Of a stretch of DNA of 64,000 nucleotides, positions 17,040 to 35,729 are shown piece by piece. The position numbers and the translations under genes were made by a program. Source of the stretch: Paracoccaceae bacterium. GTDB lineage: Bacteria > Pseudomonadota > Alphaproteobacteria > Rhodobacterales > Rhodobacteraceae. The stretch covers positions 1 through 64,000 of the forward strand of contig JAFIEO010000067.1 in assembly GCA_020832445.1 (NCBI GenBank), in the 5' to 3' direction. Numbering within the stretch: the first letter of the stretch is position 1; each line of letters starts with the position of its first letter. The notes beneath the pieces were generated by a model. It saw nothing but the letters and a program-made list of their open reading frames with translations, was not told the DNA's origin and ran no database searches.

Positions 17040-17058
17040 ATCTTATCCTTTGCCCGCA

Positions 17059-18288: not shown

Positions 18289-18289
18289 T

Positions 18290-19822: not shown

Positions 19823-19850
19823 GGTGTCCCGCCCTTCGTTCCAATTATGC

Positions 19851-19880
19851 GCATGCCTTGAGGACTGCCCCAAGGCATGC
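19851..19880 (-). ncRNA. Intercistronic stem-loop between chvE and gguA
   Basis: GCATGCCTTG (19851-19860) pairs perfectly with CAAGGCATGC (19871-19880) around a 10-base loop. It begins 24 bases after the chvE stop. No T-run follows in the minus direction, so it is more likely an mRNA stabiliser or processing barrier than a full terminator. Confidence 0.6.
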
Positions 19881-19904
19881 GGTTGCAGGGTGAATGAACA
19901 GGGC

Positions 19905-20954: not shown

Positions 20955-21024
20955 GATTTGCGCCTCCCAGAGAAATGCTGCGGCGCGGTCGGGTTCATGC
21001 CCGACTATTGACACCGGAGATGCC

Positions 21025-21053
21025 ATAATAGGGATGCACGGCATTGCCATCAA
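21025..21053 (-). promoter_or_regulatory. chvE: Sigma-70-type promoter of the chvE-arabinose operon
   Basis: On the minus strand, TTGATG (21053-21048) and TATTAT (21030-21025) are separated by exactly 17 bases. The predicted start lies about 65 bases before the chvE ATG. The AT-rich stretch 21054-21088 just upstream, between promoter and gbpR, is the natural place for activator binding. Confidence 0.55.
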
Positions 21054-21088
21054 ATCATATTAATTGAAGTATCCATATCATTTATTGT

Positions 21089-22018
21089 ATGTCTTTTGCC
21101 ATGCTGTCCTTGTCCCGCCTGAAACCCACTCATCTGAAGCTGCTTTTGCGGATTGCCGAAACCGGCAAGCTGCAACTTGCGGCGGACCAGTTGGCCATTT
21201 CGCAACCCGCCGCATCACGGATCCTGGCCGATATCGAGGCAGATATTGGCGCGCCGATATTTGAACGCTTGCCGCGCGGTATGCTGCCAACCGAAATTGG
21301 GCGTTCCATCCTGCGGCGTGTGGGAATGATCCTTGCGGAATTTGACGGGCTGGAACAGGAACTGGGCATGCTTCGGTCCGGGCAATCGGGCCGTGTGCGC
21401 ATCGGGGCCGTCACCGGGCCTGCGGTGGGATATGTTGTGCCCGCGATCGCCCATATCCGCGAACAATCCCGCGATATTGACGTGACAATCCATGTCGCAC
21501 CGTCGGCTGAACTGATCCGCGGGCTGGAAGAACGCCATTTTGATTTCATCATCGCGCGCCCGCCGCCGGGGTATGACACCACCGATCTGGAAATGAACCC
21601 GGCGCGCACGGAACGTGTGGTGCTGCTGGTGAATAACCAGCATCCGCTGGCGGGCAAACCTGCCTGCGCCCTGTCGGATTTGCGGCAGTATGAATGGGTC
21701 ATGCAGGAACGGGGGGCACCCATCCGGCAGGCGGTTGAAAACGTGTTTCGGACATCAGACCTGCCATTGCCCGATCAGGTGTCAAACAGTTCATCCCTGC
21801 TGGTCGCATTAACCATGCTTGCAGCCGGAAATGCCATCACCCCGCAAGCGCAAGAAGTCGCGGACCTGCTGGGCGCAAACGGCATTGGCGCGCGCCTGGC
21901 CGTGCTGGACATAGCCCAGACCATCAGCGTGGAGCCTTATTTTATTATCCGCCACAGGCATCATGCCAGCACAGCGGCGGTTATGCGGGTTTATCAACGG
22001 GTTCTTGAAATTCTGTAG
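21089..22018 (+). CDS. gbpR: LysR-family regulator (GbpR-like)
   Basis: This 309-residue protein has an N-terminal winged helix-turn-helix (LKLLLRIAETGKLQLAADQLAISQPAASRILADIE, about residues 12-48) and a C-terminal LysR effector-binding domain (VRIGAVTGPAVGYVVPAI, HFDFIIARPP). Divergence from chvE points to GbpR, the galactose-binding-protein regulator that activates chvE in response to sugars. The first ATG has no ribosome site and the protein could start at 21101. Its 3' end overlaps the convergent LacI gene by 38 bases. Confidence 0.82.
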   Translation: MSFAMLSLSRLKPTHLKLLLRIAETGKLQLAADQLAISQPAASRILADIEADIGAPIFERLPRGMLPTEIGRSILRRVGMILAEFDGLEQELGMLRSGQSGRVRIGAVTGPAVGYVVPAIAHIREQSRDIDVTIHVAPSAELIRGLEERHFDFIIARPPPGYDTTDLEMNPARTERVVLLVNNQHPLAGKPACALSDLRQYEWVMQERGAPIRQAVENVFRTSDLPLPDQVSNSSSLLVALTMLAAGNAITPQAQEVADLLGANGIGARLAVLDIAQTISVEPYFIIRHRHHASTAAVMRVYQRVLEIL

Positions 22019-23090
22019 GCTTGGACGGGGGCGTGCGGCCATTTGCGGGGCTGTCTGCGCTGTTGTCCAGTGGCGGGGCGGTGGTTCCCCGTTCAATCAG
22101 CGCGACAGGGGAATAGATGACATGCGCGCCTTCGGTTTTTTGTTCACCGCGCAGCCGCGCCAGCAATTCCTGCGCGGCCAGCCTGCCAAGGCCGGACCGG
22201 TCCTGCCGGATGGTTGTCAGGCCCGGTTCCGAAAAAGCAGCCATTTCGATATCATCAAAACCGATAACGGACATATCTTCAGGCACGCGAACACCGCGCT
22301 GTCTGCACCGAGCAACAAAGCTTAATGCCATCGCATCAGACGCGCAAAACACGCCTGTAGGACGCGAGTTCACTGCCAGAATACGGTCGGCCGCCAGCGC
22401 GCCAGCCCCCAACGAGAAATCCCCCTGAACAATCCAGTCCGGCGCGATGTCCAGCCCGTGCGCGGCACAGCGGTCAATATACGCGGATTTACGCATCTGG
22501 GCCAGAATGTTGCAGTCCGGTCCGGTCACATGCGCAATGCGCCGATGCCCCAGCGCCACAAGGTGATCCACCGCCAGCCTTGCCCCCAATCCGTTATTGC
22601 TGCGGATCGAAGGCAGCGGCCACTGGTCGGACCATTCGCAGCAAAACACGACATTTTGCATCATATTGGCGCTGCGCAGGGCCTTCGCGGTGATGGTCGA
22701 CATATTGCCATCAAGGGTGATCATGCCATCCACACTGCCGTTCAGAAAACAATCTGCGACCGCCTGTTCGGATGCGCCGGGTTGCTGGCTGTCAAATACC
22801 AGCACGGAATACCCGTTCGCGGACAACACGTCATTCATGCTGGACAGGATCGCCGAAAAGAACGGGTTGCCCAGATTGGGGACCAGCACCAGCACAGCCC
22901 CCGCGCGACGCGTGCGCAGATTGCGCGCCGCCTGATTGACACGGTAGCCCGTGGCCTCAATAGCATCAAAAACCTTTGCGCGCGTAGCTTCGCTCAGGCG
23001 GTCGGGCTGGGTCAGGGCGCGGCTGACGGTCGCGGTTGATACACCGGCGACTTGCGCGACATCCTTGATCTTTGGCGGGGCCTTTTGCAT
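21981..23090 (-). CDS. LacI-family regulator of the pentoside ABC operon
   Basis: This 369-residue protein has the LacI helix-turn-helix IKDVAQVAGVSTATVSRAL (residues 8-26), the hinge NQAARNLRTRR and the effector domain (VLVLVPNLGNPFFSAILSSM, GVFCASDAMALSF, MSVIGFDDIEMAAFSEPGLTT). Its proline-rich tail extends past the usual family end and overlaps the end of gbpR. Two perfect TGTAATCGATTACA palindromes lie between it and the divergent ABC operon, each about 75 bases from one of the two starts. It is therefore the likely repressor of both, released by a sugar or disaccharide taken up by that transporter. Confidence 0.9.
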   Translation of the reverse strand: MQKAPPKIKDVAQVAGVSTATVSRALTQPDRLSEATRAKVFDAIEATGYRVNQAARNLRTRRAGAVLVLVPNLGNPFFSAILSSMNDVLSANGYSVLVFDSQQPGASEQAVADCFLNGSVDGMITLDGNMSTITAKALRSANMMQNVVFCCEWSDQWPLPSIRSNNGLGARLAVDHLVALGHRRIAHVTGPDCNILAQMRKSAYIDRCAAHGLDIAPDWIVQGDFSLGAGALAADRILAVNSRPTGVFCASDAMALSFVARCRQRGVRVPEDMSVIGFDDIEMAAFSEPGLTTIRQDRSGLGRLAAQELLARLRGEQKTEGAHVIYSPVALIERGTTAPPLDNSADSPANGRTPPSKPTEFQEPVDKPA

Positions 23091-23163: not shown

Positions 23164-23177
23164 TGTAATCGATTACA
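23164..23177. promoter_or_regulatory. LacI-family operator O1 (TGTAATCGATTACA)
   Basis: A perfect 14-base palindrome with the central CG typical of LacI operators, 73 bases upstream of the lacI start. It is identical to the second copy at 23218. Confidence 0.85.
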
Positions 23178-23217: not shown

Positions 23218-23231
23218 TGTAATCGATTACA
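23218..23231. promoter_or_regulatory. LacI-family operator O2 (TGTAATCGATTACA)
   Basis: Second perfect copy, 77 bases before the binding-protein start and 54 bases from O1 (close to five helical turns). It overlaps a weak candidate -10 (AATAGT, 23213-23218) preceded by TTGGAG at 23191. Confidence 0.85.
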
Positions 23232-23308: not shown

Positions 23309-24544
23309 ATGAAAAAAACATTCGCATTGCTGGCATCAACCAGTTTGATTTCCGTTGGCACATCGGCGCTGGCCGTTGATCTGGAAGTGACGCATTGGTG
23401 GACATCGGGCGGGGAAGCGGCGGCAGTCGCCGAATTCGCACGCCTGTTCAATGAAAACACCGAACACACCTGGGTCGATGGTGCCATCGCAGGTGCCGGC
23501 GGCACGGCGCGCCCGATCATGATTGGCCGTATCACCGGCGGTGACCCGATGGGCGCAACCCAGTTCAACCATGGCCGTCAGGCCGAAGAACTGGCCGAAG
23601 CGGGCCTGATGCTGGATTTGACCGACCTGGCCGAGGCCGAGGGCTGGCATGATTTCGTGAACCCCACATCGCTGCTGGACAGCTGCACGATTGACGGGCG
23701 GCTTTACTGTGTGCCTATCAATATCCACTCCTGGCAATGGCTGTGGCTAAGCCATCAGGCCTATGAAGATGTAGGCCTGCCCGTTCCCACCAACTGGGAT
23801 GAATTCATCGAAGCGGCCCCCGCGCTGCAAGAAGCGGGAAAAATCCCGCTGGCGATGGGCGGACAACCCTGGCAGGCCGTGGGCGCTTTCGGGGTGATGG
23901 CCATTGCGCTGGCCGGAAAAGACGCATGGTCGGCGGTGCATATCGACCATGATGCAGAAGTGGCCGCCGGGCCGGAATTTGCCCGCGTGTTCGAAGCCGC
24001 AGCACAAGCGCGCGCCTTTTCCGCGCGGTCCAATGTGCAGGACTGGAATCAGGCCACCAATATGGTCATTTCCGGTCAGGCTGGCGGGCAGATCATGGGT
24101 GACTGGGCGCAGGGCGAATTTCAGGTCGCCGGTCTTGTCGCAGGCGAGGATTATTCCTGCCTGCCCGGACTTGGTGTCACTGAAATCATCTCGACGGGCG
24201 GGGATGCGTTCTATTTCCCCAAGATCAACGACCCCGAAGTAGAGGCAGCACAGCTTGAACTGGCCTCGTTGATGATTTCGCCTGAAGCGCAGGTGGCTTT
24301 CAACCTGAAGAAAGGGTCGCTGCCGGTGCGTGGTGATGTCGATCTGGAAGCCGCGAATGACTGCATGCAGAAGGGGCTGGAAATTCTGGCGACGGGCAAC
24401 ATTCTGCCTGATGCAAACCAGACATTTTCGCCCGATACGCAAGGCCAGATCGAGGATCTGATGGTCGAATTCTGGAACGATCCCAACTACACCCCAGAAG
24501 AAGCCCAACGTCTGTACGCCGAGATTGTTGCGCGCGCGGATTAA
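23309..24544 (+). CDS. CUT1 ABC transporter sugar-binding protein
   Basis: This 411-residue precursor has a signal peptide ending TSALA (residues 1-21). It is an extracellular solute-binding protein of the oligosaccharide (family 1) type: VTHWWTSGGEAAAVAEFARLF, INIHSWQWLWLSHQAYEDVGL, PTNWDEFIEAAPALQEAGKIPLAMGG and IMGDWAQGEFQ. These segments recall the glucose/oligosaccharide-binding proteins of the GtsA group. GGGAGGAACGC precedes this ATG, so the upstream in-frame Met (23288) is not used. It feeds the two permeases and ATPase downstream. With a cytoplasmic GH43 xylosidase in the operon, xylo- or arabino-oligosaccharides are the likely cargo. Confidence 0.88.
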   Translation: MKKTFALLASTSLISVGTSALAVDLEVTHWWTSGGEAAAVAEFARLFNENTEHTWVDGAIAGAGGTARPIMIGRITGGDPMGATQFNHGRQAEELAEAGLMLDLTDLAEAEGWHDFVNPTSLLDSCTIDGRLYCVPINIHSWQWLWLSHQAYEDVGLPVPTNWDEFIEAAPALQEAGKIPLAMGGQPWQAVGAFGVMAIALAGKDAWSAVHIDHDAEVAAGPEFARVFEAAAQARAFSARSNVQDWNQATNMVISGQAGGQIMGDWAQGEFQVAGLVAGEDYSCLPGLGVTEIISTGGDAFYFPKINDPEVEAAQLELASLMISPEAQVAFNLKKGSLPVRGDVDLEAANDCMQKGLEILATGNILPDANQTFSPDTQGQIEDLMVEFWNDPNYTPEEAQRLYAEIVARAD

Positions 24545-24552
24545 GCAGGTGG

Positions 24553-24581
24553 CCGGGGTTCCCTGCATAAGGGAACCCCGG
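24553..24581 (+). ncRNA. Intercistronic stem-loop after the CUT1 binding protein gene
   Basis: CCGGGGTTCCC (24553-24563) pairs perfectly with GGGAACCCCGG (24571-24581) around TGCATAA. It begins nine bases after the stop and has no T-run, so read-through into the permease genes is expected. Confidence 0.65.
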
Positions 24582-24618
24582 ATATTCAAAAGAATTTTCC
24601 ACATACCGGAGGATCAAG

Positions 24619-25530
24619 ATGTCAAGCGCAAGACGCGCTCGTGATGGCGCACGCCCGCCAATCCGCCTGCTGCGCAATCTGTCGTCCAAACTGGCGGCCA
24701 TTCCGATGGTGCTGGTGGGGCTTGGCGTATTCGTGGGGGGCACGATCTGGACGATTGTTCATTCCTTCACCGACTCGCGCCTGCTGCCACGGCTGAACTG
24801 GGTTGGTTTTGATCAGTATGAACGTTTGTGGAGCACCCGCCGGTGGCTGGTATCCATTGAAAACCTTGCTGTTTACGGCATTGTGTCACTTGTGTTGACC
24901 ATGTGTCTGGGGTTTTTTCTGGCGGCCCTGCTGGACCGGAAAATCCGGTTCGAAGATACATTCCGCACGATCTTTCTGTATCCATTTGCCCTGTCCTTCA
25001 TTGTGACCGGCCTTGTCTGGCAATGGATCCTGAACCCTGATTTCGGTATTCAGTCGGTCATTCGCGGGCTTGGGTTTTCAGGGTTCAATTTTGATCCGCT
25101 GTATAATCCTGATCTGGTGATCATCGGGCTGTTGATTGCGGGGTTATGGCAGGGAACGGGCCTGATCATGGTCATCATGTTGGCGGGCCTGCGCGGCATT
25201 GACGAAGACATATGGAAGGCCACCCGCGTGGACGGAATTCCGATATGGAAAACCTATATCGTGGTCATTATTCCCATGATGAAGCCGGTTTTTGTAACCG
25301 CGCTGGTGCTGGTGACCAGTGGCATTGTGAAACTTTACGATCTGGTCGTGGCAATGACATCGGGCGGTCCCGGCATCTCGTCCGAAGTGCCGGCGAAATT
25401 TGTGTATGACACGTTGTTCACACGCCAGAATCTGGGGCAGGGCTTTGCCGCATCAACGATGATGCTGGTAACCGTCGCCATTATCCTGATCCCATGGGCC
25501 TATATGCAATATCGGGAGAAGCGCCAATGA
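24619..25530 (+). CDS. CUT1 ABC transporter permease 1
   Basis: This is the first membrane subunit of the oligosaccharide importer, 303 residues with six predicted helices. The cytoplasmic EAA loop EDIWKATRVDGIPIWKTYIVVIIPM contacts the ATPase. The N-terminus is basic (SSARRARDGARPP) and the first helix contains MVLVGLGVFVGGTIWTIVHSF. ACCGGAGGATCAAG provides a strong ribosome site. The stop overlaps the next start (ATGA), so the two permeases are made in equal amounts as a heterodimer. Confidence 0.93.
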   Translation: MSSARRARDGARPPIRLLRNLSSKLAAIPMVLVGLGVFVGGTIWTIVHSFTDSRLLPRLNWVGFDQYERLWSTRRWLVSIENLAVYGIVSLVLTMCLGFFLAALLDRKIRFEDTFRTIFLYPFALSFIVTGLVWQWILNPDFGIQSVIRGLGFSGFNFDPLYNPDLVIIGLLIAGLWQGTGLIMVIMLAGLRGIDEDIWKATRVDGIPIWKTYIVVIIPMMKPVFVTALVLVTSGIVKLYDLVVAMTSGGPGISSEVPAKFVYDTLFTRQNLGQGFAASTMMLVTVAIILIPWAYMQYREKRQ

Positions 25531-26414
25531 CCGCTGTTACCCCCCGCGGTGCGAAGCCGCAAAAGGCCTTGTCGCCGCGCAATATCATGCTGTATGGCGC
25601 GCTGGTCATCTTCAGCCTGTATTACCTGCTGCCACTTTATGTGATGATCGTCACATCGCTGAAGGACATGGCCGAAATCCGTGTGGGCAACATTTTTTCG
25701 GCGCCTGTGGAAATTACATTCCAGCCATGGGTCAAGGCGTGGTCGCAGGCCTGCACCGGTATCAATTGCGACGGGTTGTCGCGCGGGTTCTGGAATTCGG
25801 TCCGCATTCTGATCCCGTCGCTGATCATCTCGGTGTCAGTGGCGGCGCTGACGGGCTATGTGCTGGCCTGCTGGCGGTTCAAAGGGTCGGAAGTGTTCTT
25901 TGGCATCTTGCTGCTTGGGGCGTTCATTCCCTATCAGGTGCTGCTGTATCCGCTGGTCATCATCTTGCGCGAACTGGGTCTGTTCGGGTCGCTGTGGGGG
26001 CTGGTACTGGTGCATACGGTCTTTGCCATGCCCATCAATGTGCTGTTGTTCCGCAACTATTTTGTGGCCTTGCCGGAGGAGTTGTTCAAGGCCGCGCGCG
26101 TTGATGGCGCAGGGTTCTGGGGCATTTTCTTTCGCATCGTAATCCCCATGTCGCTGCCGATTTTCGTGGTGTCGGGGATTATTCAGGTCACCGGCATCTG
26201 GAACGACTTCTTGTTCGGGGTGGTTTACACGCGGCCAGAAAATTACCCGATGACAGTGCAACTGAACAACATCGTCAATTCGGTTCAGGGGGTAAAGGAA
26301 TACAATGTCAACATGGCAGCCACACTGCTGACAGGGCTGGTGCCGCTGGTGGTGTATTTCTTCTCTGGGAAACTATTCATTCGCGGCATCGCTGCGGGCG
26401 CGGTCAAAGGCTAG
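25527..26414 (+). CDS. CUT1 ABC transporter permease 2
   Basis: This is the second membrane subunit, 295 residues of the MalG type. Six helices, the first at YGALVIFSLYYLLPLYVMIVTSL. The EAA loop EELFKAARVDGAGFWGIFFRIVIPMSLPIF is present, and the family-typical GIWNDFLFGVVYTRPENYPMTVQLNNIV lies near the end. The start follows from the four-base overlap with permease 1. The extracytoplasmic loop has a cysteine pair (QACTGINCDG) not general in the family, which might form a disulfide. Confidence 0.93.
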   Translation: MTAVTPRGAKPQKALSPRNIMLYGALVIFSLYYLLPLYVMIVTSLKDMAEIRVGNIFSAPVEITFQPWVKAWSQACTGINCDGLSRGFWNSVRILIPSLIISVSVAALTGYVLACWRFKGSEVFFGILLLGAFIPYQVLLYPLVIILRELGLFGSLWGLVLVHTVFAMPINVLLFRNYFVALPEELFKAARVDGAGFWGIFFRIVIPMSLPIFVVSGIIQVTGIWNDFLFGVVYTRPENYPMTVQLNNIVNSVQGVKEYNVNMAATLLTGLVPLVVYFFSGKLFIRGIAAGAVKG

Positions 26415-26423
26415 GGCGAAACC

Positions 26424-27509
26424 ATGACACATTCAATTTCGATCAAGGATCTGACACTTTCCTTCGGGGCAGTCACGGTTCTGGAAGACCTGAACCTAGA
26501 TGTGGGGCAGGGGGAGTTTCTGGTGCTGCTGGGGTCGTCCGGGTGCGGAAAATCGACGTTGCTGAACTGCATCGCGGGGTTGCTGGACATCACAGATGGT
26601 GAAATTCACATTCAGGGCAAGAATGTCACATGGGAAGAACCGTCCAAGCGCGGCATCGGCATGGTGTTCCAAAGCTATGCGCTGTATCCGCAAATGACGG
26701 TCGAGGGGAATCTGGCCTTCGGGTTGAAAAACGCCCGTGTTCCCAAGGCCGAGATTGCAACCCGTATTGCCCGCGCGGCGGACGTGTTGCAGATCGAACC
26801 GCTGCTGAAACGAAAACCAGCCGCATTGTCGGGCGGTCAGCGCCAGCGGGTTGCCATCGGGCGCGCATTGGTGCGCGATGTGGATGTGTTCCTGTTTGAC
26901 GAACCGCTGTCCAATCTGGACGCCAAGCTGCGGGCCAATCTGCGGGTTGAAATCAAGCGTCTGCACCACACGCTGAAAAACACCATGATCTATGTGACCC
27001 ATGATCAGGTCGAGGCCATGACACTGGCCGACCGCATTGCCATCATGCGCGACGGGCAGATCATGCAGCTTGCCCCGCCTGCGGAAATCTACAACCGCCC
27101 CGTGAACAAATATGTCGCAGGATTTATCGGGTCACCTGCAATGAACCTTATTCCCGGCCAGCTGGATGCTGCGGACCAGCAGTTTGACACAGGGCTTGGA
27201 ATGTCGATTTCGGTTCAGGGGTATGAATTTACGTCCGCCCCCATTACCGGCCCTGTCTGGCTGGGGTTGCGCCCTGAACATGTGCTTTCCGGCCAGATGG
27301 CGCAAACCCAGCCGGTGCAACTGGATGCCTATGTCGACATGGTCGAACCCATGGGGTCGGATACGCAAGTCTGGGCCAAGATCGGCAAACAGGAATTGCG
27401 GTTCCGCATGGACGGGCAGGCAGAAGTGGCCATTGGCGACACGGTGCCAATCGGGTTCGATCCCGCGCGCCTGTCGCTGTTTGACAAGAAAAGCGAAGCG
27501 CGCCTGTAG
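26424..27509 (+). CDS. CUT1 ABC transporter ATP-binding protein (MalK/UgpC type)
   Basis: This 361-residue ATPase has Walker A GSSGCGKST, Q-loop VFQSYALYPQMTVEGN, signature LSGGQRQRVAIGRAL, Walker B VFLFDEPLSNLDAKLR and H-loop YVTHDQVEAMTLA. The C-terminal about 120 residues form the OB-fold TOBE domain common to MalK-like proteins, with GLRPEHVL. It energises the two permeases above. It completes the importer, and the catabolic genes follow after 35 bases on the same strand. Confidence 0.95.
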   Translation: MTHSISIKDLTLSFGAVTVLEDLNLDVGQGEFLVLLGSSGCGKSTLLNCIAGLLDITDGEIHIQGKNVTWEEPSKRGIGMVFQSYALYPQMTVEGNLAFGLKNARVPKAEIATRIARAADVLQIEPLLKRKPAALSGGQRQRVAIGRALVRDVDVFLFDEPLSNLDAKLRANLRVEIKRLHHTLKNTMIYVTHDQVEAMTLADRIAIMRDGQIMQLAPPAEIYNRPVNKYVAGFIGSPAMNLIPGQLDAADQQFDTGLGMSISVQGYEFTSAPITGPVWLGLRPEHVLSGQMAQTQPVQLDAYVDMVEPMGSDTQVWAKIGKQELRFRMDGQAEVAIGDTVPIGFDPARLSLFDKKSEARL

Positions 27510-27544
27510 CGTTTCAACACGAACTCCAAGAAGGAAAACACACC

Positions 27545-28294
27545 ATGGATGTTTCATTCCAGCTTTATTCTGCGCGCAATTTCACCCCATGGGACAAGGT
27601 TCTGGACCAGCTGGCCGAACTTGGCTACACGCAGGTCGAAGGGTTTGGTGGCGTTTATGAGGACGCGGCCGCATTCCGTGCGGCGCTTGATACGCGCGGG
27701 CTGACCATGCCATCGGGGCATTTCTTCCCGCTTGCCAATTTTGAATCGGATTTCGACAAAACCATCGCCAATGCCAAAGCGCTTGGCATTGGCCAGCTTT
27801 ACTGCCCCGCCCCTGATGATGTCTACCGCGACGGGGCAGATGCGCAGGCATGGCGCGATCTGGCCGCACGGCTGGAAGTCGCAGCCAAGCGTGTGCAGGA
27901 TGCGGGCCTGCGCTTTGGCTGGCATAACCACCATTGGGAATTCATGCCGCTGACCGGCGGTGAAATTCCCATGGCGCTGCTGCTGGAAGGGGCACCATCC
28001 ATGGAATGGGAAGCTGACATTGCGTGGATCGTGCGCGGCGGGGGTGACCCACTGGCGTGGATTGCGCAGCACGGGTCGCGCATTACTGCCGCCCATGTCA
28101 AGGACATCGCCCCTGAAGGGCAATGCGCGGACGAAGACGGCTGGGCCGATGTGGGACACGGCACCATGGACTGGCCTGCCATCATGGCCGCATTGCGCAG
28201 CAACGGTGTCAGCCTGTTCGTGATGGAACATGACAACCCCAATGATCTGGCCCGTTTCGCGCGCCGTTCAATCACCAATTACCGCCAATTCTAA
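27545..28294 (+). CDS. Sugar (3-keto sugar?) epimerase/isomerase, xylose-isomerase-like TIM barrel, copy 1
   Basis: This 249-residue protein belongs to the sugar phosphate isomerase/epimerase (AP endonuclease 2-like) TIM barrels. It opens with VSFQLYSARNFTPWDKVLDQLAELGYTQVEGFG. Metal-binding and catalytic positions are visible in GWHNHHWEF, MEWEADIAW, AAHVKDIA and FVMEHDN. Family members include YcjR, which epimerises 3-keto-glucosides made by the Gfo/Idh enzyme YcjS. The immediately following gene is a Gfo/Idh protein, so a two-step oxidation/epimerisation is plausible. Substrate unknown. No signal peptide, so it is cytoplasmic. Confidence 0.8.
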   Translation: MDVSFQLYSARNFTPWDKVLDQLAELGYTQVEGFGGVYEDAAAFRAALDTRGLTMPSGHFFPLANFESDFDKTIANAKALGIGQLYCPAPDDVYRDGADAQAWRDLAARLEVAAKRVQDAGLRFGWHNHHWEFMPLTGGEIPMALLLEGAPSMEWEADIAWIVRGGGDPLAWIAQHGSRITAAHVKDIAPEGQCADEDGWADVGHGTMDWPAIMAALRSNGVSLFVMEHDNPNDLARFARRSITNYRQF

Positions 28295-28304
28295 GGGGCA
28301 CAGC

Positions 28305-29426
28305 ATGACTAAAACACTGGGTATCGGCGTTCTTGGCTGCGGCAACATCTCGGCCGCATATATGCGCCTTGCACCGCTGTTTCGCGGCATTGAAATGCGG
28401 GCTTGCGCCGATCTGAATGCAGATGCGGCCAAGGCGCGCGCCGCGGAATTCGGCCTGCGTGCTGAAACCGTTGACGGGCTTTTAGGCGCAGATGACATTG
28501 ACATCATCGTCAACCTGACCGTGCCAGCCGCGCATTTCGATGTGTCCATGCAAATTCTGGACGCGGGCAAACATGTCTATTCCGAAAAGCCGTTTGTGCT
28601 GTCGCTGGAAGAAGGGCAGAAACTGGCCGCAAAAGCCGCCGAAAAGGGCCTGCGCGTAGGGTCCGCGCCCGACACGTTCATGGGCGGCGCGCATCAGCTT
28701 GCGCGTCATCTGGTGGATTCCGGGCGCGTGGGCAAGGTCAGTTCCGGCACCTGTTTTGTCCAAAGCCCGGGCATGGAAATGTGGCACCCCAATCCGGACT
28801 TCTTCTTCAAGCCCGGTGGCGGGCCGATCCTTGATCTGGGGCCATACTACATTTCCAACCTTGTGCAGCTTCTGGGGCCGGTCAAGCGTGTGACAGCCAT
28901 GAGCATGAGCGCGCAATCCGAACGCACGATCACATCCCAACCCCGCCATGGCGACAAGATCACCGTGGAAACGCCCACCACCATCCACGCAATCTTGCAG
29001 TTCCAGTCGGGCGCGCAGGTGACCTATTGCGCCAGTTGGGACGTGTGGCAGCATGGGCATGCGCCGATGGAACTTTATGGCGCGGATGGCACACTGCATG
29101 TGCCCGACCCCAATTTCTTCGGGGGGGAAGTGCGCATGACATCCAAGGCCGCGTTCACATCGGCAGGGGTGGCATGGGATCACCCGTTCGGGCGCGCGAA
29201 TGACGGCACAAACGCCAATTACCGCGCGGCGGGGCTGGCCGATATGGCGTTGGCCATTGTGGACGGGCGCGCGCATCGGTGTTCGCTGGAATTTGCGTTG
29301 CATGTGGTGGATGTGATGACCGCAATCCTGAACGCGGCTGAAGGGGGGCAGGTTCTGGACATCACCACCACCTGCGACCGCCCTGACGCCCTGTCGCCCG
29401 AAGGTGCGCAGGCGTTGCTGGCATGA
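28305..29426 (+). CDS. Gfo/Idh/MocA oxidoreductase, copy 1
   Basis: This 373-residue NAD(P)-dependent sugar dehydrogenase has the Rossmann motif IGVLGCGNISAAY (residues 6-18), the EKPF motif (HVYSEKPFVLSLEEG) and substrate-domain segments GGGPILDLGPYYISNLVQLLGPV and YCASWDVWQHGHAPMELYGADGTL. The His-containing GPYY segment corresponds to the active site. It starts ten bases after the TIM-barrel gene. It could oxidise a sugar or glycoside at C3 (as in YcjS or ThuB-like enzymes) or act as the missing D-xylose 1-dehydrogenase; sequence alone does not decide. It overlaps the next gene by four bases. Confidence 0.85.
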   Translation: MTKTLGIGVLGCGNISAAYMRLAPLFRGIEMRACADLNADAAKARAAEFGLRAETVDGLLGADDIDIIVNLTVPAAHFDVSMQILDAGKHVYSEKPFVLSLEEGQKLAAKAAEKGLRVGSAPDTFMGGAHQLARHLVDSGRVGKVSSGTCFVQSPGMEMWHPNPDFFFKPGGGPILDLGPYYISNLVQLLGPVKRVTAMSMSAQSERTITSQPRHGDKITVETPTTIHAILQFQSGAQVTYCASWDVWQHGHAPMELYGADGTLHVPDPNFFGGEVRMTSKAAFTSAGVAWDHPFGRANDGTNANYRAAGLADMALAIVDGRAHRCSLEFALHVVDVMTAILNAAEGGQVLDITTTCDRPDALSPEGAQALLA

Positions 29427-30472
29427 GTGTGTATTGCGCAGCAGACGACCGCTACGCGCGGATGCAATACCGCCGTTGCGGCGCATCGGGGTTGATGCTG
29501 CCTGCAATCTCACTGGGTCTGTGGCACAATTTCGGCGATGACACCCCGCATGAAGTCAAACGCAGCATTTGCCAGACTGCGTTTGACCATGGCATCACGC
29601 ATTTTGATCTGGCCAATAATTATGGCCCGCGTCCAGGTGCTGCGGAATCCGCGTTCGGGGAAATCCTGCGCAGTGATTTCGCGCCATACCGCGACGAGAT
29701 GGTGATTTCCACCAAGGCAGGCTACCGCATGTGGCCGGGGCCATATGGTGAATGGGGCAGCCGCAAATATCTGGTGTCATCTTGTGATGCGTCCCTGAAA
29801 CGGATGGGCTTGGATTATGTGGATATTTTCTATTCACACCGGTTCGACCCCGACACGCCGCTGGAAGAAACCATGGGCGCGCTGGACTATATCGTGCGGT
29901 CAGGCCGCGCGCTATATGCGGGGATATCCAGCTATAATTCCGAACGCACCCGTCAGGCGGTGGCCATTCTGAAGGATCTGGGCACGCCTTGCGTCATCCA
30001 CCAGCCAAGCTACAACATGATCAACCGCTGGGTGGAACGCGACGGGCTGAAGGACACTTTGCACGAACTGGGCGTTGGCTCCATCGCGTTCACGCCATTG
30101 GCGCAAGGGATGCTGACCACGAAATACCTGAACGGCATTCCCGACGGCAGCCGCGCCAGCCAGGGCAAATCGCTGGCCACCGGCATGATCAGCGAGCGCG
30201 CGATTGAAAATATCCGCAAGCTGAATGACATTGCATCCGCGCGCGGGCAGACACTGGCACAAATGGCCATTGCATGGGTGCTACGCGGCGGCGGGATTAC
30301 CACAGCGCTGATCGGGGCCTCTAGCCCCTCGCAAGTGATTGATTGCGCAGGCGCAGTGGACAATCTGGATTTTACCGATGCGGAACTGGCGCAGATTGAT
30401 CGCTGGGCCGATGAGGAAAACATCAACCTTTGGGCGCAATCATCAGAATTGGACAAGGACGCAACCCCATGA
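29423..30472 (+). CDS. Aldo/keto reductase (YghZ-like, AKR14 group)
   Basis: This 349-residue NADPH-dependent reductase resembles YghZ (L-glyceraldehyde 3-phosphate reductase) and potassium-channel beta subunits. MQYRRCGASGLMLPAISLGLWHNFGDD is characteristic. The catalytic tetrad is readable: Asp in HFDLANNYGP, Tyr in the same loop, Lys in VISTKAGYRMWPGP and His in DIFYSHRFDP. The cofactor-binding end is LIGASSPSQVIDCAGA. In this operon it may reduce a keto- or aldehyde sugar from the neighbouring dehydrogenases. It overlaps both neighbours by four bases. Confidence 0.87.
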   Translation: MSVYCAADDRYARMQYRRCGASGLMLPAISLGLWHNFGDDTPHEVKRSICQTAFDHGITHFDLANNYGPRPGAAESAFGEILRSDFAPYRDEMVISTKAGYRMWPGPYGEWGSRKYLVSSCDASLKRMGLDYVDIFYSHRFDPDTPLEETMGALDYIVRSGRALYAGISSYNSERTRQAVAILKDLGTPCVIHQPSYNMINRWVERDGLKDTLHELGVGSIAFTPLAQGMLTTKYLNGIPDGSRASQGKSLATGMISERAIENIRKLNDIASARGQTLAQMAIAWVLRGGGITTALIGASSPSQVIDCAGAVDNLDFTDAELAQIDRWADEENINLWAQSSELDKDATP

Positions 30473-32070
30473 TCCGCAACCCCATTCTGCCCGGTTTCAA
30501 CCCCGACCCGTCGATTTGCCGCGTGGGCGACGACTATTTCATCGCTACATCGACCTTTGAATGGTTCCCCGGCGTGCAAATCCACCACTCCACCGATCTG
30601 GTGAACTGGGATCTGGCATGCAGGCCATTGACGCGCGCCAGCCAGCTGGACATGCGCGGCAACCCGGACAGTTGCGGTGTCTGGGCGCCGTGCCTGTCCT
30701 ATGCCGACGGGCTATTCTGGCTGGTCTACACGGATGTCAAACGGCTGGATGGCAATTTCAAGGACGCGCATAACTACATCGTCACCGCGCCAGCGATTGA
30801 AGGGCCGTGGTCGGACCCGATTTATGTGAATTCATCAGGGTTTGACCCGTCGCTGTTTCATGATGATGACGGGCGCAAGTGGTTTGTGAACATGCAATGG
30901 AACCATCGCGGCCGGTCTGTGGGTGGACAGCCCCAAAGCCCCGCCTTTGACGGGATTTTGTTGCAGGAATGGCACCCCGAACGCGGGCTGACAGGTCCGG
31001 TGCGCAATATCTTTCCGGGCAGTCCACTGGGGTTGGTCGAAGGGCCGCATCTGTTCAGGCGGGGGGGCTATTATTACCTGACCACCGCCGAAGGGGGCAC
31101 GGGCTATGGCCATGCGGTCACCATGGCGCGGGCGCGCCAGATTGATGGTCCGTATGAGTTGCACCCCGACACGCATCTGATCACATCCAAGGACCACCCC
31201 GACGCGCCCTTGCAACGCGCAGGCCACGGCCAGATCGTGGAAACCCCGCAAGGCGACGTGTATCATACGCATTTATGTTCGCGCCCGCTGCCGGGACGGT
31301 TTTCACCATTGGGGCGCGAAACCGCGATACAGAAATGTGTCTGGGCCGATGATGGCTGGCTGTATCTGGCGCAGGGTGGGCCGGTGCCCGCGCGGGACGT
31401 GCCCGCCCCTGTCGATGTGGCCCCAAGGCCCGCGACCGCAATACGCCGCATATTCGACGGGCCGGACCTGCCGCCGGAATTCCAGTGGTTACGCAGCCCG
31501 CAACCTGAACGCCTGTTTACCCTGACAGGCGACGCGCTGTGCCTGCATGCGCGCGAAAGCATAGGCAGCTGGTTTGAACAGGCACTTGTCGCGCGCAGGC
31601 AGGAACATCTGCAATACCGCGCGGAAACCGCGCTGGCCGAATTTGCGCCCGACACCTACCAACAGGCGGCGGGGCTGGTGACGTATTACAACCGCACCAA
31701 GTTCCATTTCGCTGCCGTCACATGGGACGAAAAACTGGGCCGGTGCCTGACACTCATGTCCTGCGCCGGTGACTGGCCCGATGGCGCGCTGCACTGGCCG
31801 TGCGATCCGGTGGCACTGGACGCCGGCCCTGTATGGCTGGCGGTCAAGGTCAGCCGTGCGGTGCAGCAATTCTACTGGCATCAGGGCGGCGACTGGGTGG
31901 CCCTTGGGCCTGCGCTGGATGCATCCGTCATTTCTGACGAAGGCGGGCGGGGCGAGCATGGCTCTTTCACCGGTGCGTTCGTGGGCATGGCGGCCTTTGA
32001 CATTACCGGACGCGCGCTGCCTGCGCATTTCCGCAGTTTCGACTACACTCCCGAACCTGGGCAAGCCTGA
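30469..32070 (+). CDS. xynB: Glycoside hydrolase family 43 beta-xylosidase / alpha-L-arabinofuranosidase
   Basis: It releases terminal xylose (or arabinofuranose) from short oligosaccharides. The 533-residue protein has no signal peptide, so it acts on imported substrates in the cytoplasm. The five-blade propeller carries the three GH43 acidic residues: base Asp13 (NPDPSICRVGDDYF), Asp126 (SSGFDPSLFHDDDG) and acid Glu191 (GLVEGPHLFRR). The C-terminal about 200 residues form the beta-sandwich found in subfamily 11 enzymes such as the Selenomonas beta-xylosidase. It starts within the stop of the aldo-keto reductase gene (ATGA). It explains why a CUT1 oligosaccharide importer leads the operon. 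Confidence 0.9.
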   Translation: MIRNPILPGFNPDPSICRVGDDYFIATSTFEWFPGVQIHHSTDLVNWDLACRPLTRASQLDMRGNPDSCGVWAPCLSYADGLFWLVYTDVKRLDGNFKDAHNYIVTAPAIEGPWSDPIYVNSSGFDPSLFHDDDGRKWFVNMQWNHRGRSVGGQPQSPAFDGILLQEWHPERGLTGPVRNIFPGSPLGLVEGPHLFRRGGYYYLTTAEGGTGYGHAVTMARARQIDGPYELHPDTHLITSKDHPDAPLQRAGHGQIVETPQGDVYHTHLCSRPLPGRFSPLGRETAIQKCVWADDGWLYLAQGGPVPARDVPAPVDVAPRPATAIRRIFDGPDLPPEFQWLRSPQPERLFTLTGDALCLHARESIGSWFEQALVARRQEHLQYRAETALAEFAPDTYQQAAGLVTYYNRTKFHFAAVTWDEKLGRCLTLMSCAGDWPDGALHWPCDPVALDAGPVWLAVKVSRAVQQFYWHQGGDWVALGPALDASVISDEGGRGEHGSFTGAFVGMAAFDITGRALPAHFRSFDYTPEPGQA

Positions 32071-32110
32071 ATGGCCTGCCCGGAAAAACACCAAACCACG
32101 AGGAAGACCA

Positions 32111-33172
32111 ATGCCCGCAAAAATTAAAGGACCAGCCCTGTTTCTGGCGCAATTCGCAGGCGACGAAGCCCCTTTCAACTCGTTGGAAAACATCACCAAA
32201 TGGGCGGCATCGCTGGGTTACAAAGGCGTGCAGATCCCGACATTCGACCCGCGCCTGTTCGATCTGGACCGCGCCGCAGACAGCAAGGATTACTGCGATG
32301 AAATCGCGGGTATCTGCGCCGCATCGGCGGTGGAAATCACCGAATTGTCCACCCATTTGCAGGGCCAGCTTGTTGCCGTGAACCCTGTCTTTGACACGGC
32401 GTTTGACGGGTTTGCCCCCGCTGCGCTGCATGGCAAACCAGCGGCACGGCAGGAATGGGCCGTGGATCAGGTCAAGAAAGCCGCGCGCGCCAGCCGTCAT
32501 CTGGGGCTGGACACATCGGTCAGTTTTACGGGATCACTGGCGTTTCCGTTCCTGTATCCATGGCCGCAGCGCCCCGCTGGCCTGATTGAAGAGGCGTTTT
32601 CCGAACTGGCCCGCCGCTGGCGTCCGATCCTTGATGTCTATGACGAATACGGCGTTGATATCGGCTATGAAATTCACCCCGGCGAAGATGTCTTTGACGG
32701 GGCGACATGGGAAATGTTTCTGGATGCGCTGGACGGCCACACCCGCGCGCGCATCAATTACGACCCGTCGCATTTCCTGCTGCAACAGATGGATTATCTG
32801 GCCTTTATCGACATCTATCATGACCGTATCTGCGCTTTTCACGTCAAGGATGCAGAATTCAACCCCGACGGGCGACAAGGCGTTTATTCCGGCTATCAGC
32901 CATGGCTGAACCGCGCGGGGCGCTTCCGCAGCCTTGGCGACGGTCAGGTCGATTTTGCTGCGATATTTTCCAAGCTGTCGCAATATGATTACGACAGCTG
33001 GGCCGTGCTGGAATGGGAATGCTGCCTGAAATCCCCCGAACAAGGCGCGGCCGAAGGGGCACCTTTCATCGCGCAACATATCATTGATGTGACCGACAAG
33101 GCGTTTGATGATTTCGCAGGCGCAAAAACCGATATCGCGCAAATTCGCGCAATGCTGGGGATTGATCAATGA
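32111..33172 (+). CDS. Sugar epimerase/isomerase, xylose-isomerase-like TIM barrel, copy 2
   Basis: This 353-residue TIM-barrel protein, longer than copy 1, has metal-site candidates in GYEIHPGEDVFDG, RINYDPSHFLLQQMD, CAFHVKDAEFNPDG and AVLEWECCLKS. The start has GAGGAAGACCA upstream; a long upstream in-frame extension overlapping the GH43 gene is rejected. The four-base overlap with the Gfo/Idh gene behind it mirrors the first TIM/Gfo pair at 27.5-29.4 kb. A role in epimerising a keto-sugar intermediate is inferred from this pairing. Confidence 0.82.
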   Translation: MPAKIKGPALFLAQFAGDEAPFNSLENITKWAASLGYKGVQIPTFDPRLFDLDRAADSKDYCDEIAGICAASAVEITELSTHLQGQLVAVNPVFDTAFDGFAPAALHGKPAARQEWAVDQVKKAARASRHLGLDTSVSFTGSLAFPFLYPWPQRPAGLIEEAFSELARRWRPILDVYDEYGVDIGYEIHPGEDVFDGATWEMFLDALDGHTRARINYDPSHFLLQQMDYLAFIDIYHDRICAFHVKDAEFNPDGRQGVYSGYQPWLNRAGRFRSLGDGQVDFAAIFSKLSQYDYDSWAVLEWECCLKSPEQGAAEGAPFIAQHIIDVTDKAFDDFAGAKTDIAQIRAMLGIDQ

Positions 33173-34311
33173 GTGTACGTTTGAAACTGGGCATGGTAGG
33201 CGGCGGCGAAGGCGCGTTCATAGGCGGCGTTCACCGCATTGCGGCACGCATTGACGGGCAATGGGATCTGGTCGCGGGGGCGCTGTCGTCGGACCCTGCG
33301 CGCGCGCATGCATCAGCCGCAGCGCTTGGGATTGCGCCGGACCGCAGCTATGACAGCTTCGCGCAGATGGCCGCAGCGGAGGCCGCACGCGATGATGGCA
33401 TTGACGCGGTCGCGATTGTCACGCCCAACCATATGCATGTGCCCGCCGCGCTGGCCTTTTTGCGCGCCGGTATCCATGTGATTTGCGACAAGCCACTTGC
33501 GTCCAGACTGGAGGACGCGCTGGAACTGGAACAGGCGCTTGCGCAATCGGGCAAGCTGTTTGTGCTGACGCATAATTATTCTGGCTATCCGCTGATCCGG
33601 CAGGCGCGCGATATGGTGGCGCGGGGCGAACTGGGCCGTTTGCGGCTGGTGCATGTCGAATATGTGCAGGACTGGCTAACTGAGGCGGCAACCGGCAAAC
33701 AGGCCGAATGGCGCACAGACCCTGCACGGTCCGGCGCTGGCGGGGCGATTGGCGATATTGGCACCCATGCATGGCAACTGGCCGAATTTGTCACGGGCCA
33801 GTCCCCCGATGCACTGGCCGCTGATCTGTCCAGTTTTGTGGACGGGCGCGCGGTGGATGACAACGCCCATGTGATGCTGCGCTATGCCAGCGGGGCCAAG
33901 GGCATGCTATGGGCATCGCAAGTGGCGGTCGGCAATGAAAACGGCTTGCGGCTGCGCATCCATGGCGACAAGGGGGGTCTGGACTGGGCGCAGGAAAACC
34001 CCAACCAGATGGCGTTCACCCGCTTTGGCCAGCCGACACAAATCCTGACGCGCGGGGGTGCCGGGGCCAATGATGCGGGCTTAGCCACCACACGCATTCC
34101 CGCAGGCCATCCCGAAGGGTATCTTGAAGGGTTTGCCACCCTTTACCGCGAAGCAGCCGATGCCATCCGCGCCCATGATGCAGGCAGCGCACTTGAGGGC
34201 GGGGTTTTGCCGGGCCTGGCGGACGGGTTGTCAGGCATGCGCTTCATTGATGCCTGCCTGCGGTCGTCAAAGGCGGACGGGGCGTGGATGCGGGTTGTCC
34301 CGCAAGCTTGA
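33169..34311 (+). CDS. Gfo/Idh/MocA oxidoreductase, copy 2
   Basis: This 380-residue protein has the nucleotide-binding motif LGMVGGGEGAFIGGVHRIA and the CDKPLAS motif (HVICDKPLASRLEDA). Active-site segments include THNYSGYPLIRQARDMV, GAIGDIGTHAWQLAEFVTG and GEN-type LLWASQVAVGNENGLRLRIHG. It is only distantly similar to copy 1, so it is not a recent duplication. It is the last gene of the operon, which runs for eleven kilobases from 23.3 kb. Its job is likely oxidation or re-reduction of a glycoside or sugar ring together with the TIM-barrel protein. Confidence 0.87.
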   Translation: MSVRLKLGMVGGGEGAFIGGVHRIAARIDGQWDLVAGALSSDPARAHASAAALGIAPDRSYDSFAQMAAAEAARDDGIDAVAIVTPNHMHVPAALAFLRAGIHVICDKPLASRLEDALELEQALAQSGKLFVLTHNYSGYPLIRQARDMVARGELGRLRLVHVEYVQDWLTEAATGKQAEWRTDPARSGAGGAIGDIGTHAWQLAEFVTGQSPDALAADLSSFVDGRAVDDNAHVMLRYASGAKGMLWASQVAVGNENGLRLRIHGDKGGLDWAQENPNQMAFTRFGQPTQILTRGGAGANDAGLATTRIPAGHPEGYLEGFATLYREAADAIRAHDAGSALEGGVLPGLADGLSGMRFIDACLRSSKADGAWMRVVPQA

Positions 34312-34397: not shown

Positions 34398-35729
34398 ATG
34401 CGCGGTATCGCTATGGGGCTGGTGGCAGTTGCCGGTTTGGGGTGCGGCAGCGCGCTGGCCGAATTGCCCTTGCCCGCTGCGGTAAGTGATGCCGATTTTG
34501 CCAGCCACCCGCCCGATCTGGTGCGGCTTGGCTGGCATTTGTTTTACGACCCCATCCTGTCGGGGAACCGCGAAGTGGCGTGCGCGACATGCCACCACCC
34601 CGCCTTTGGCACATCTGACGGGGTGTCGCTGGGTCTGGGCGACGGGGGCAAGGGCCTTGGCCCTGCGCGCGTGGCCGATGCGGACAATATGCCAAAACAA
34701 CGCATTCCCAGAAATTCGCCCGCGCTGTGGAATTTGGGCGCCTATGAATTCACCCGCATGTTCCATGATGGCCGCATCGAGGTTGACCCAACCCGCGAAA
34801 CCGGACTGCGCACACCGCTGGAAGGGGACATGATGGCGGGGTTTGCCTCGCTTCTGTCGGCGCAGAACATGTTTCCTGTCCTTAGCCCCGATGAAATGGC
34901 GGGCCATTACAGCGAGAATGAAATTGCACAAGCCGTGCGCCAGGGGCGCATTACCGGCGCAGGGGGCGCATGGGATCTGATTGCGCAGCGGGTGCGTGAC
35001 ATTCCCGACTATGCCGCGCGTTTTATTGCCACAGATGACACGATCACATCGCCCGATGACATTGCATTCACGCATATATCAGATGCCATCGCGGCCTTTG
35101 TCGCGGTCGAATTCCGGTCCGATACCAGTCCGTTTGATGCATATCTGCGCGGTCAGGGCGATCTGGCGGAGGGGGCCGCGCGCGGGATGGGCCTGTTTTA
35201 CGGGCGCGCCACCTGTTCCAGTTGCCATTCCGGCCCGTTCCAGACCGATCACGGGTTTCATGCGCGCGGCGTGCCGCAACTGGGACCGGGCAAGGCCGCG
35301 CGGTTTGAATCGCACCGCCGCGACACAGGGCGCATGCGCGTAACAGGGCGCGATGAAGACGCATTTGCCTTTCGCACGCCGTCCCTGCGCAATGTGGCGC
35401 ATACAGCGCCCTACGGTCATGCGGGGTCGCATGCCACGCTTGAAGGCTTCATCCGCGACCACGCCGACCCTGTGGCGGGCCTTATGCGCTATGACCGCGC
35501 GCAAGTCATCTTGCCGGATCTGGCCGTGGATGACTGGCAGATCATGGACGACCCTGCCGAGCTTGCCGCCATCGCAGATGCCGTGCAAACCCCGCCCATT
35601 GCCCTGAGTGTCCGTGACATTGAAGATATCGTGGCCTTTCTGGACAGTTTAAGCGATGCGCAGGCACTGGCGGGGCGGTTGGGCGTGCCCCCTGATGTGC
35701 CCAGCGGGCTGGTTGTGCCAAACCCGTGA
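34398..35729 (+). CDS. Diheme cytochrome c peroxidase / MauG-family protein
   Basis: This 443-residue exported protein has a signal peptide (residues 1-21, ...GSALA). Two c-type heme sites are present: Cys62-x-x-Cys65-His66 (CATCH) and Cys273-x-x-Cys276-His277 (CSSCH), as in CcpA peroxidases and MauG. Further landmarks are NSPALWNLGAYEFTRMFHDGRIEVDP and FAFRTPSLRNVAHTAPYGHAGSHATLEGF. It acts in the periplasm on hydrogen peroxide or in oxidative protein modification. I start at 34398 behind GGGGGGCAGG; the longer reading overlaps the previous gene and lacks a proper signal. The stop faces the CRTAC1 gene across a repeat element. Confidence 0.88.
   Translation: MRGIAMGLVAVAGLGCGSALAELPLPAAVSDADFASHPPDLVRLGWHLFYDPILSGNREVACATCHHPAFGTSDGVSLGLGDGGKGLGPARVADADNMPKQRIPRNSPALWNLGAYEFTRMFHDGRIEVDPTRETGLRTPLEGDMMAGFASLLSAQNMFPVLSPDEMAGHYSENEIAQAVRQGRITGAGGAWDLIAQRVRDIPDYAARFIATDDTITSPDDIAFTHISDAIAAFVAVEFRSDTSPFDAYLRGQGDLAEGAARGMGLFYGRATCSSCHSGPFQTDHGFHARGVPQLGPGKAARFESHRRDTGRMRVTGRDEDAFAFRTPSLRNVAHTAPYGHAGSHATLEGFIRDHADPVAGLMRYDRAQVILPDLAVDDWQIMDDPAELAAIADAVQTPPIALSVRDIEDIVAFLDSLSDAQALAGRLGVPPDVPSGLVVPNP

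Follow-up and report, generated by a model that had tools for sequence, protein, structure and literature searches.

An operon of a Paracoccaceae bacterium that joins a GH43 beta-xylosidase with a predicted oxidation-elimination route through 3-keto-glycosides

The DNA analyzed here (the window) is a stretch of 64,000 nucleotides from a Paracoccaceae bacterium, positions 1–64,000 of contig JAFIEO010000067.1 in GenBank assembly GCA_020832445.1. At positions 23309–34311 it carries ten plus strand genes, collinear and open, which form a compact operon that follows a divergently oriented LacI gene. The operon joins an ABC importer of the CUT1 type with an aldo-keto reductase (AKR), a GH43 beta-xylosidase, and two gene pairs, each consisting of a TIM-barrel and a Gfo/Idh protein (TIM1 and Gfo1, TIM2 and Gfo2). 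The question raised by this locus is what two such pairs do beside a xylosidase. A first-pass annotation took them for two epimerase/dehydrogenase pairs of a pentoside operon resembling the ycj system of Escherichia coli; its observation of the genes is confirmed here and its interpretation is partly supported. The two TIM-Gfo pairs are not duplicates of one step but look like halves of one pathway, which very probably consists of oxidation, beta-elimination, hydration, and reduction. The best explanation of the operon as a whole is that xylosides are among the substrates of this four-step route, with a probability of roughly 0.6.

The genes are as follows. AtOGE, AtHYD, and AtGfo refer to a glucoside pathway of Agrobacterium tumefaciens and LgdA and LgdC to a levoglucosan pathway, both compared below.

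23309–24544, plus strand: solute-binding protein (SBP) of the CUT1 importer, by family scan; nearest solved relatives 5xpj and 5dvf (ABC sugar-binding proteins)
24619–25530, plus strand: ABC permease 1, by family scan
25527–26414, plus strand: ABC permease 2, an open reading frame whose start and name agree with the RefSeq homologue
26424–27509, plus strand: UgpC/MalK-type ATPase, NF008653 above cut-off
27545–28294, plus strand: TIM1, predicted 3-keto-beta-glycoside 1,2-lyase (beta-eliminase, AtOGE type), by match to 8bvk, conserved residues, and fold matches
28305–29426, plus strand: Gfo1, predicted NAD-linked glycoside 3-dehydrogenase (C3 presumed), by Gfo/Idh domains, K95, D177, Y181, and folds
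29423–30472, plus strand: AKR of the YghZ/MgrA type, NF007388 above cut-off (479 vs 448 bits)
30469–32070, plus strand: GH43 beta-xylosidase with a C-terminal concanavalin-like domain, by PF04616, PF17851, and match to 1yrz
32111–33172, plus strand: TIM2, predicted 2-hydroxy-3-keto-glycal hydratase (AtHYD type), by match to 8ro4
33169–34311, plus strand: Gfo2, predicted 3-keto-sugar reductase (LgdC/AtGfo role), 61–62% identical to the HYD-adjacent Gfo of two OGE-type operons; PDB sequence match 3v5n, E-value = 1e-145

Neighboring genes are separated by −4 to 74 nt; permease 1/permease 2, Gfo1/AKR, AKR/GH43, and TIM2/Gfo2 overlap by 4 nt each. The Pfam scan took in permease 1 only, of the two permeases. 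Genes, families, and overlaps confirm the single operon first described. The genes recur in the same order and at unchanged lengths in the RefSeq annotation of a 612,909-base plasmid from the alkaline-spring isolate Roseinatronobacter sp. S2, whose TIM1 is 97% identical to that of the window. The window genome has one copy each of TIM1, TIM2, and GH43 at the thresholds used.

The best PDB sequence match of TIM1 is 8bvk (E-value = 1.7e-31), the structure of the A. tumefaciens O-glycoside beta-eliminase AtOGE. In the AtOGE report (PMC10628242), the metal ligands are His132, Asp163, His189, and a weakly bound Glu233; His134 is catalytic, the H134A mutant being inactive; and His132, His66, Glu39, and Glu161 surround a shifted metal position. 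All of these have counterparts in TIM1: H127 corresponds to His132, D158 to Asp163, H184 to His189, E228 to Glu233, H129 to His134, H59 to His66, E32 to Glu39, and E156 to Glu161. Ten of ten AtOGE positions (E39, H66, H132, N133, H134, E161, D163, H189, K191, and E233, of which Asn133 and Lys191 were added here to those named for AtOGE in PMC10628242) are identical in TIM1 and likewise in 48/48 full-length TIM1 relatives. Nine of them, all but N133, were rechecked and are identical in 79/79 named TIM1 relatives aligned, one of the 80 having been removed by a length filter; the counterpart of N133 is almost, not fully, invariant in alignment A2. The structure model of TIM1, built from 45 natural sequences, shows a mean pLDDT (predicted local distance difference test) of 96.1. 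Its closest PDB folds are the 3-keto-beta-glucopyranoside-1,2-lyases AL1 (Alistipes) and BT1 (Bacteroides), entries 8tcr, 8tcd, and 8tct, at 22–23% identity. Also close in fold are two functionally uncharacterized Parabacteroides proteins (3obe, 3l23) and, at rank 7, AtOGE itself; the E. coli TIM barrel YcjR is not among the best 50 fold matches listed. TIM1 displays the metal and catalytic residues of AtOGE in a fold of the lyase type, and is a predicted 3-keto-beta-glycoside 1,2-lyase of the AtOGE type. The 3-keto-glycoside chemistry proposed at first is borne out to this extent, by residues and by a modeled fold.

TIM2 matches 8ro4 over residues 4–351 with 557.8 bits (E-value = 9e-167). This is AtHYD, the 2-hydroxy-3-keto-glucal hydratase, named hydratase in its PDB title (2024). 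Operons of the published type, consisting of HYD, Gfo, a GMC dehydrogenase with a gluconate-2-dehydrogenase-type small subunit, and OGE, were found in Ketogulonicigenium and on a Palleronia plasmid. TIM2 shares 64% identity with the HYD proteins of these two operons, and TIM1 33–34% with their OGE proteins. The Gfo proteins beside HYD there show 60.5% and 62.2% identity to Gfo2. TIM2 and Gfo2 are less than 300 bp apart in 68/68 loci with both. By homology, TIM2 is thus predicted to be a 2-hydroxy-3-keto-glycal hydratase and Gfo2 the 3-keto-sugar reductase beside it. The evidence for AtHYD as a hydratase and for Gfo as a 3-keto-glucose reductase is itself preliminary in PMC10628242. In Palleronia sp. 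LCG004 the plasmid operon (locus L195) has, in addition, genes for a further TIM barrel and for a DUF1080 protein. The DUF1080 family is linked to 3-keto-glycoside hydrolysis in PMC9007349, and this operon perhaps holds two cleavage modes.

Gfo1 is an intact Gfo/Idh protein by domain scan, and Lys95 of the EKP motif, Asp177, and Tyr181 do not vary across 44 aligned rows. The model (pLDDT 90.9) finds as best fold match 4gqa, an oxidoreductase of unknown function. Gfo1 holds the position of the GMC dehydrogenase in the A. tumefaciens operon and of LgdA in the levoglucosan operon. Oxidation at C3 is suggested by this operon company, as fold and sequence do not fix the regiochemistry. Three other identities were tried with curated models and rejected. 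Levoglucosan dehydrogenase LgdA (NF052479, cut-off 650 bits) gives 50.6 bits for Gfo1 and 120.2 for Gfo2. C1 xylose dehydrogenase of the Gfo6 type (NF041392, cut-off 350) gives 30.3 and 83.8, C1 activity in another family being possible. The inositol types IolG (TIGR04380, cut-off 355) and IolE (TIGR04379, cut-off 290) give 57.6/67.9 and 46.2/60.3 bits, respectively. The first-pass annotation had named a C1 xylose dehydrogenase or an inositol-type Gfo as the outcome that would overturn it; the scores lie far under the curated cut-offs.

The predicted activities may be arranged in a pathway. The CUT1 transporter would import beta-linked glycosides, including beta-xylosides (short xylo-oligosaccharides or xylosides), and sugar would be freed in the cytoplasm by two parallel ways. 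In one, GH43 would hydrolyze off non-reducing xylose. In the other, Gfo1 would oxidize the glycoside at C3 with NAD+, TIM1 would remove the aglycone by an Mn-dependent beta-elimination to give a 2-hydroxy-3-keto-glycal, TIM2 would add water to yield a 3-keto sugar, and Gfo2 would reduce this with NADH. The net result would be a redox-neutral hydrolysis with NAD(H) balanced, and xylose would pass on to XylB/XylA. As a guess, the AKR may clean up keto by-products. The content of the operon agrees with the importer-fed cytoplasmic route proposed at first. The stereochemical editing by epimerization proposed with it is not supported, since the set appears to encode oxidation, beta-elimination, hydration, and reduction instead.

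The closest described pathway is GlycDH-AtOGE-AtHYD-Gfo of A. tumefaciens (PMC10628242), which acts on glucosides and has its eliminase, hydratase, and reductase families in common with the window. The hydratase-reductase pair of the window is 60–64% identical to two OGE-type operons, whereas TIM1 shows only about 31–34% identity to OGE proteins. Step 1 is a flavin dehydrogenase in A. tumefaciens and a Gfo/Idh protein in the window, and the window, unlike A. tumefaciens, has the CUT1 importer, GH43, and AKR built in. The lgdA-B1-B2-C pathway of Bacillus smithii (PMC7676230) proceeds by NAD-linked oxidation, elimination, hydration, and reduction of levoglucosan, and shares with the window two Gfo/Idh proteins, two TIM barrels, and an ABC importer. 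However, GH43 is present in the window, and Gfo1 and Gfo2 score far under the LgdA model cut-off. The ycj cluster (PMC11543891) has an ABC importer, a Gfo/Idh protein, a TIM barrel, and keto-sugar logic in common with the window, but the net reaction differs and TIM homology is undetectable: BLASTP of TIM1 and TIM2 against YcjR gives E-values of 0.11 and 0.002, with no useful match. YcjR was misplaced by MAFFT in the TIM1 alignment and no residue claim is made for it. No disaccharide phosphorylase or phosphoglucomutase was found among the scanned operon genes or in the RefSeq annotation of the Roseinatronobacter sp. S2 homologue. The parallel with ycj drawn by the first-pass annotation is thus not supported, the closest relatives of known function being beta-eliminases (8bvk, 8tcr, 8tct) and a hydratase (8ro4).

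The window GH43 lies inside the predicted 3-keto-glycoside operon. It displays the PF04616 catalytic domain and the PF17851 C2 domain, and matches beta-xylosidases over its whole length (1yrz, E-value = 2e-167; 2exh, E-value = 6e-151). Its three catalytic acids align with what we take to be the family motifs, and hydrolysis of xylosides is predicted. Its start, MIRNPILPGFNPDPS, shows no signal peptide by eye, no predictor having been used, and the cytoplasmic location proposed earlier stands.

The association of GH43 with TIM1 was surveyed in 345 genomes of the family from 344 genera; the statistics count each genus as an independent case, an assumption that holds only roughly. TIM1 is found in 103 genomes (E<=1e-20), TIM2 in 166 (E<=1e-60), GH43 in 63 (E<=1e-90), and xylA in 213 (E<=1e-100). 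TIM1 is present in 61 of the 63 GH43 genomes, which rules out GH43 as a chance insert, and 39 of 64 GH43 genes are situated within 8 kb of a TIM1 gene. The control within the 213 xylA genomes shows TIM1 in 60/62 with GH43 vs 30/151 without it. The tie of xylA itself to TIM1 is much looser (90/213). TIM2 occurs in 94/103 genomes with TIM1 vs 72/242 without. In six genomes (G154, G363, G140, G201, G318, and G346) a GH43 match with one in-frame stop is reported.

At least 567 TIM1 relatives were found in one scan, and the best 80 of these were taken as named loci. Some of the loci end at contig ends, so that absences are upper bounds, and gene maps were drawn by tblastn with the window proteins, automatic picking of open reading frames being contaminated by antisense frames. 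Gfo1 is present in 80/80 named loci, the ATPase in 77, SBP in 73, AKR in 46 (one of which, L184, is a 25% match only), GH43 in 35, TIM2 in 35, and Gfo2 in 30. In 130/131 loci with both, TIM1 and Gfo1 are less than 300 bp apart (some genomes are counted twice), and therefore the TIM1-Gfo1 set is not due to chance. The taxa include Rhodobacterales, Roseibium, Hoeflea, Mesorhizobium, Sinorhizobium, Thiothrix, Leucothrix, Granulosicoccus, and others, a spread which we take to cover Rhodobacterales, Hyphomicrobiales, and some Gammaproteobacteria. The recurrent neighborhood that the first-pass annotation proposed to look for, GH43 with TIM and Gfo, is thus found, with GH43 frequent but not constant. 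A GH2 gene with an Ig_mannosidase domain is situated between the ATPase and TIM1 in L167 (7609–9981), L179 (7408–9879), and seven more named loci, identified by Pfam in two of the nine and by similarity in the rest. A TolB-like PD40 propeller of about 290 aa is found before TIM2 or after GH43 in 13/80 named loci (e.g. L118, 11934–12794, and L135, 14567–15457).

In a tree of 125 TIM1 proteins, 59 of them with GH43, the distribution of GH43 needs 23 changes vs 42.0 for shuffled labels, with 0/500 shuffles as low. With AtOGE included (126 rows, the window row unlabeled for GH43), 24 changes are needed vs 41.8. GH43 is thus clustered on the TIM1 tree yet often gained or lost, and is a frequent partner of the TIM1 cluster rather than a fixed part of it.

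A second link to xylose comes from TIM2. Independently of TIM1, TIM2 is situated within 5 kb of xylA in at least 14 genomes, among 89 with both among the matches listed. Of 18 loci inspected, most of them chosen for closeness of TIM2 and xylA, 14 (L197–L210, e.g. L198, L203, L204, and L206) hold xylA with TIM2 and Gfo2 nearby; in L205 Gfo2 is on the far side of xylA. An XylG-like ATPase is found in nine of the 14 and an XylB-like kinase in four, and the stretches of these loci show no TIM1, OGE, or GMC match. The xylA neighborhood fits xylose as a product of the TIM2-Gfo2 pair. However, it also shows the pair at work in more than a single context, which makes the neighborhood weak evidence on the substrate of TIM1. 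The pentoside link of the first-pass annotation gains support from the GH43-TIM1 association and from TIM2 beside xylA.

The reaction chemistry would allow a xyloside. From C2 to C4, xylose is configured like glucose. AtOGE cleaves 3'-keto-cellobiose, not 3'-keto-maltose (PMC10628242), and given the agreement of the two sugars a beta-1,4-xyloside as substrate is chemically reasonable. In a further reading, the operon would encode a cytoplasmic, NAD-linked oxidation-elimination pathway dedicated to beta-pentosides, in which TIM2 and Gfo2 convert 2-hydroxy-3-keto-xylal to xylose and the lyase route and GH43 form a two-pronged system for xylosides; Gfo1 and TIM1 would act on xylosides, or on decorated xylosides closed to GH43. 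This reading is put forward tentatively, its odds being a little short of even.

Several observations weigh against xylosides as substrates of the route, or against parts of the route itself. TIM1 shares only 31% identity (72/231) with AtOGE. Gfo1 has no close characterized relative, and its fold is about equally like scyllo-inositol/L-glucose dehydrogenase, levoglucosan dehydrogenase, DgpA1, and 1,5-anhydrofructose reductase. The SBP is nearer to glucose binders than to xylo-oligosaccharide binders: 2b3b is a glucose binder by its PDB title, and we take 5xpj and 5dvf, the nearest solved relatives, to be Pseudomonas glucose binders. Nine of the 103 TIM1 genomes show no TIM2 at E<=1e-60. GH43 is patchy on the TIM1 tree, 45/80 named TIM1 loci show no GH43 within reach, and 25/64 GH43 genes are either over 8 kb away from TIM1 or on a different contig, drafts breaking some contigs. 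Phaeobacter plasmids carry the enzyme set without GH43. The GH2 mannosidase-type gene replaces GH43 or stands beside it in 9/80 named loci, a hint that some forms of the cluster may handle other beta-glycosides.

Part of this evidence favors the strongest alternative, in which the same four steps act on beta-glucosides only (cellobiose, plant phenolic glucosides) and GH43 is simply co-regulated to deal with xylosides, one importer bringing in both. The activity of AtOGE on 3'-keto-cellobiose, the relatives of the SBP, and the loci without GH43 agree with it, as does a window genome with no GH1 match and two GH3 matches. It is judged unlikely, though, as the tie from GH43 to TIM1 is strong and nearly one-way in the xylA-positive genomes, and TIM2 beside xylA suggests that xylose is a product. 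A second alternative, breakdown of inositol or of a free rare sugar by a C1 or ring dehydrogenase and an IolE-like dehydratase with GH43 incidental, could appeal to the weak IolE/IolG matches and to scyllo-inositol dehydrogenase as the top PDB sequence match of Gfo1; at 46 vs 290 and 58 vs 355 bits, with TIM2 matching AtHYD at 558 bits and GH43 not incidental, it is most improbable. A ycj-like route of C3 oxidation, TIM-barrel epimerization, and re-reduction, after which GH43 cleaves the changed sugar, shares superfamilies with the operon (Gfo1 and Gfo2 are 23% and 25% identical to YcjS over 241 and 216 residues) but is hardly credible given the lyase-type fold and residues of TIM1, the hydratase match of TIM2, and the lack of a significant YcjR match and of a phosphorylase or phosphomutase in the operon.

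Returning to the four-step route with xylosides among its substrates, the operon also appears to have its own control:

21981–23090, minus strand: LacI-family regulator, predicted local repressor, divergent, by Pfam LacI and Peripla_BP_3
23164–23177, no strand: palindrome TGTAATCGATTACA, predicted LacI operator 1, exact copy
23218–23231, no strand: palindrome TGTAATCGATTACA, predicted LacI operator 2, exact copy

The two perfect palindromes are 54 bp apart between the LacI and SBP genes. They are the only two exact copies in the 4.08-Mb assembly, and no further copy within 2 mismatches is found in the window (0.05 expected). Within the 450 bases that precede the SBP match, the palindrome is found with 2 mismatches or fewer in 51/56 loci with the window LacI type, in 0/35 loci where a second LacI type heads the same enzyme set, and in 7/25 with neither type recognized; shuffled regions give a best match at about 5.5 mismatches. 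Some genomes are in both locus sets of this survey, and the second LacI type was sought in the later set only. Since the exact copies stand only before the operon and the palindrome is conserved with the window LacI type, the operon looks like its own regulon. A dedicated LacI repressor would control it through the two palindromes.

The region around the operon is a pentose island. Upstream, at 15297–23090, an L-arabinonate dehydratase and a chvE-gguAB type monosaccharide importer adjoin the operon; in Roseinatronobacter sp. S2 these are on the plasmid. Directly 3' of the operon, at 34398–35729, is a di-heme cytochrome c peroxidase/MauG-like protein, and at 36008–37495 on the opposite strand an FG-GAP/ASPIC-UnbV (CRTAC1) protein; both are also found in Roseinatronobacter sp. 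S2. Further right are a ROK regulator and then xylF-H-G-B-A, with XylB/XylA at 42241–44981, about 8 kb downstream of the operon. Rfam and tRNA scans of the window gave no match and a tRNA scan of locus L197 none; a sigma-70 scan gave 5 sites vs 5.7 in shuffles and a terminator scan 15 vs 13.4.

Non-hydrolytic cleavage of glycosides is recent knowledge, described for glucosides, levoglucosan, and C-glycosides. The four-step route is of a known kind; what looks new is how closely it is linked to xylose sugars. The open literature searched yielded no paper on a xyloside version of the pathway (3-keto-xylo/xylal), and in PMC8954004 the single '3-keto' belongs to the name of a reagent. The cluster is very conserved, and if the explanation is true, this chemistry would extend to hemicellulose sugars. 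It would also give a function to many proteins annotated as 'sugar phosphate isomerase/epimerase', such as the TIM1 relatives counted here, and would raise the question of why one cell keeps an oxidative lyase next to a hydrolase that acts on the same bond.

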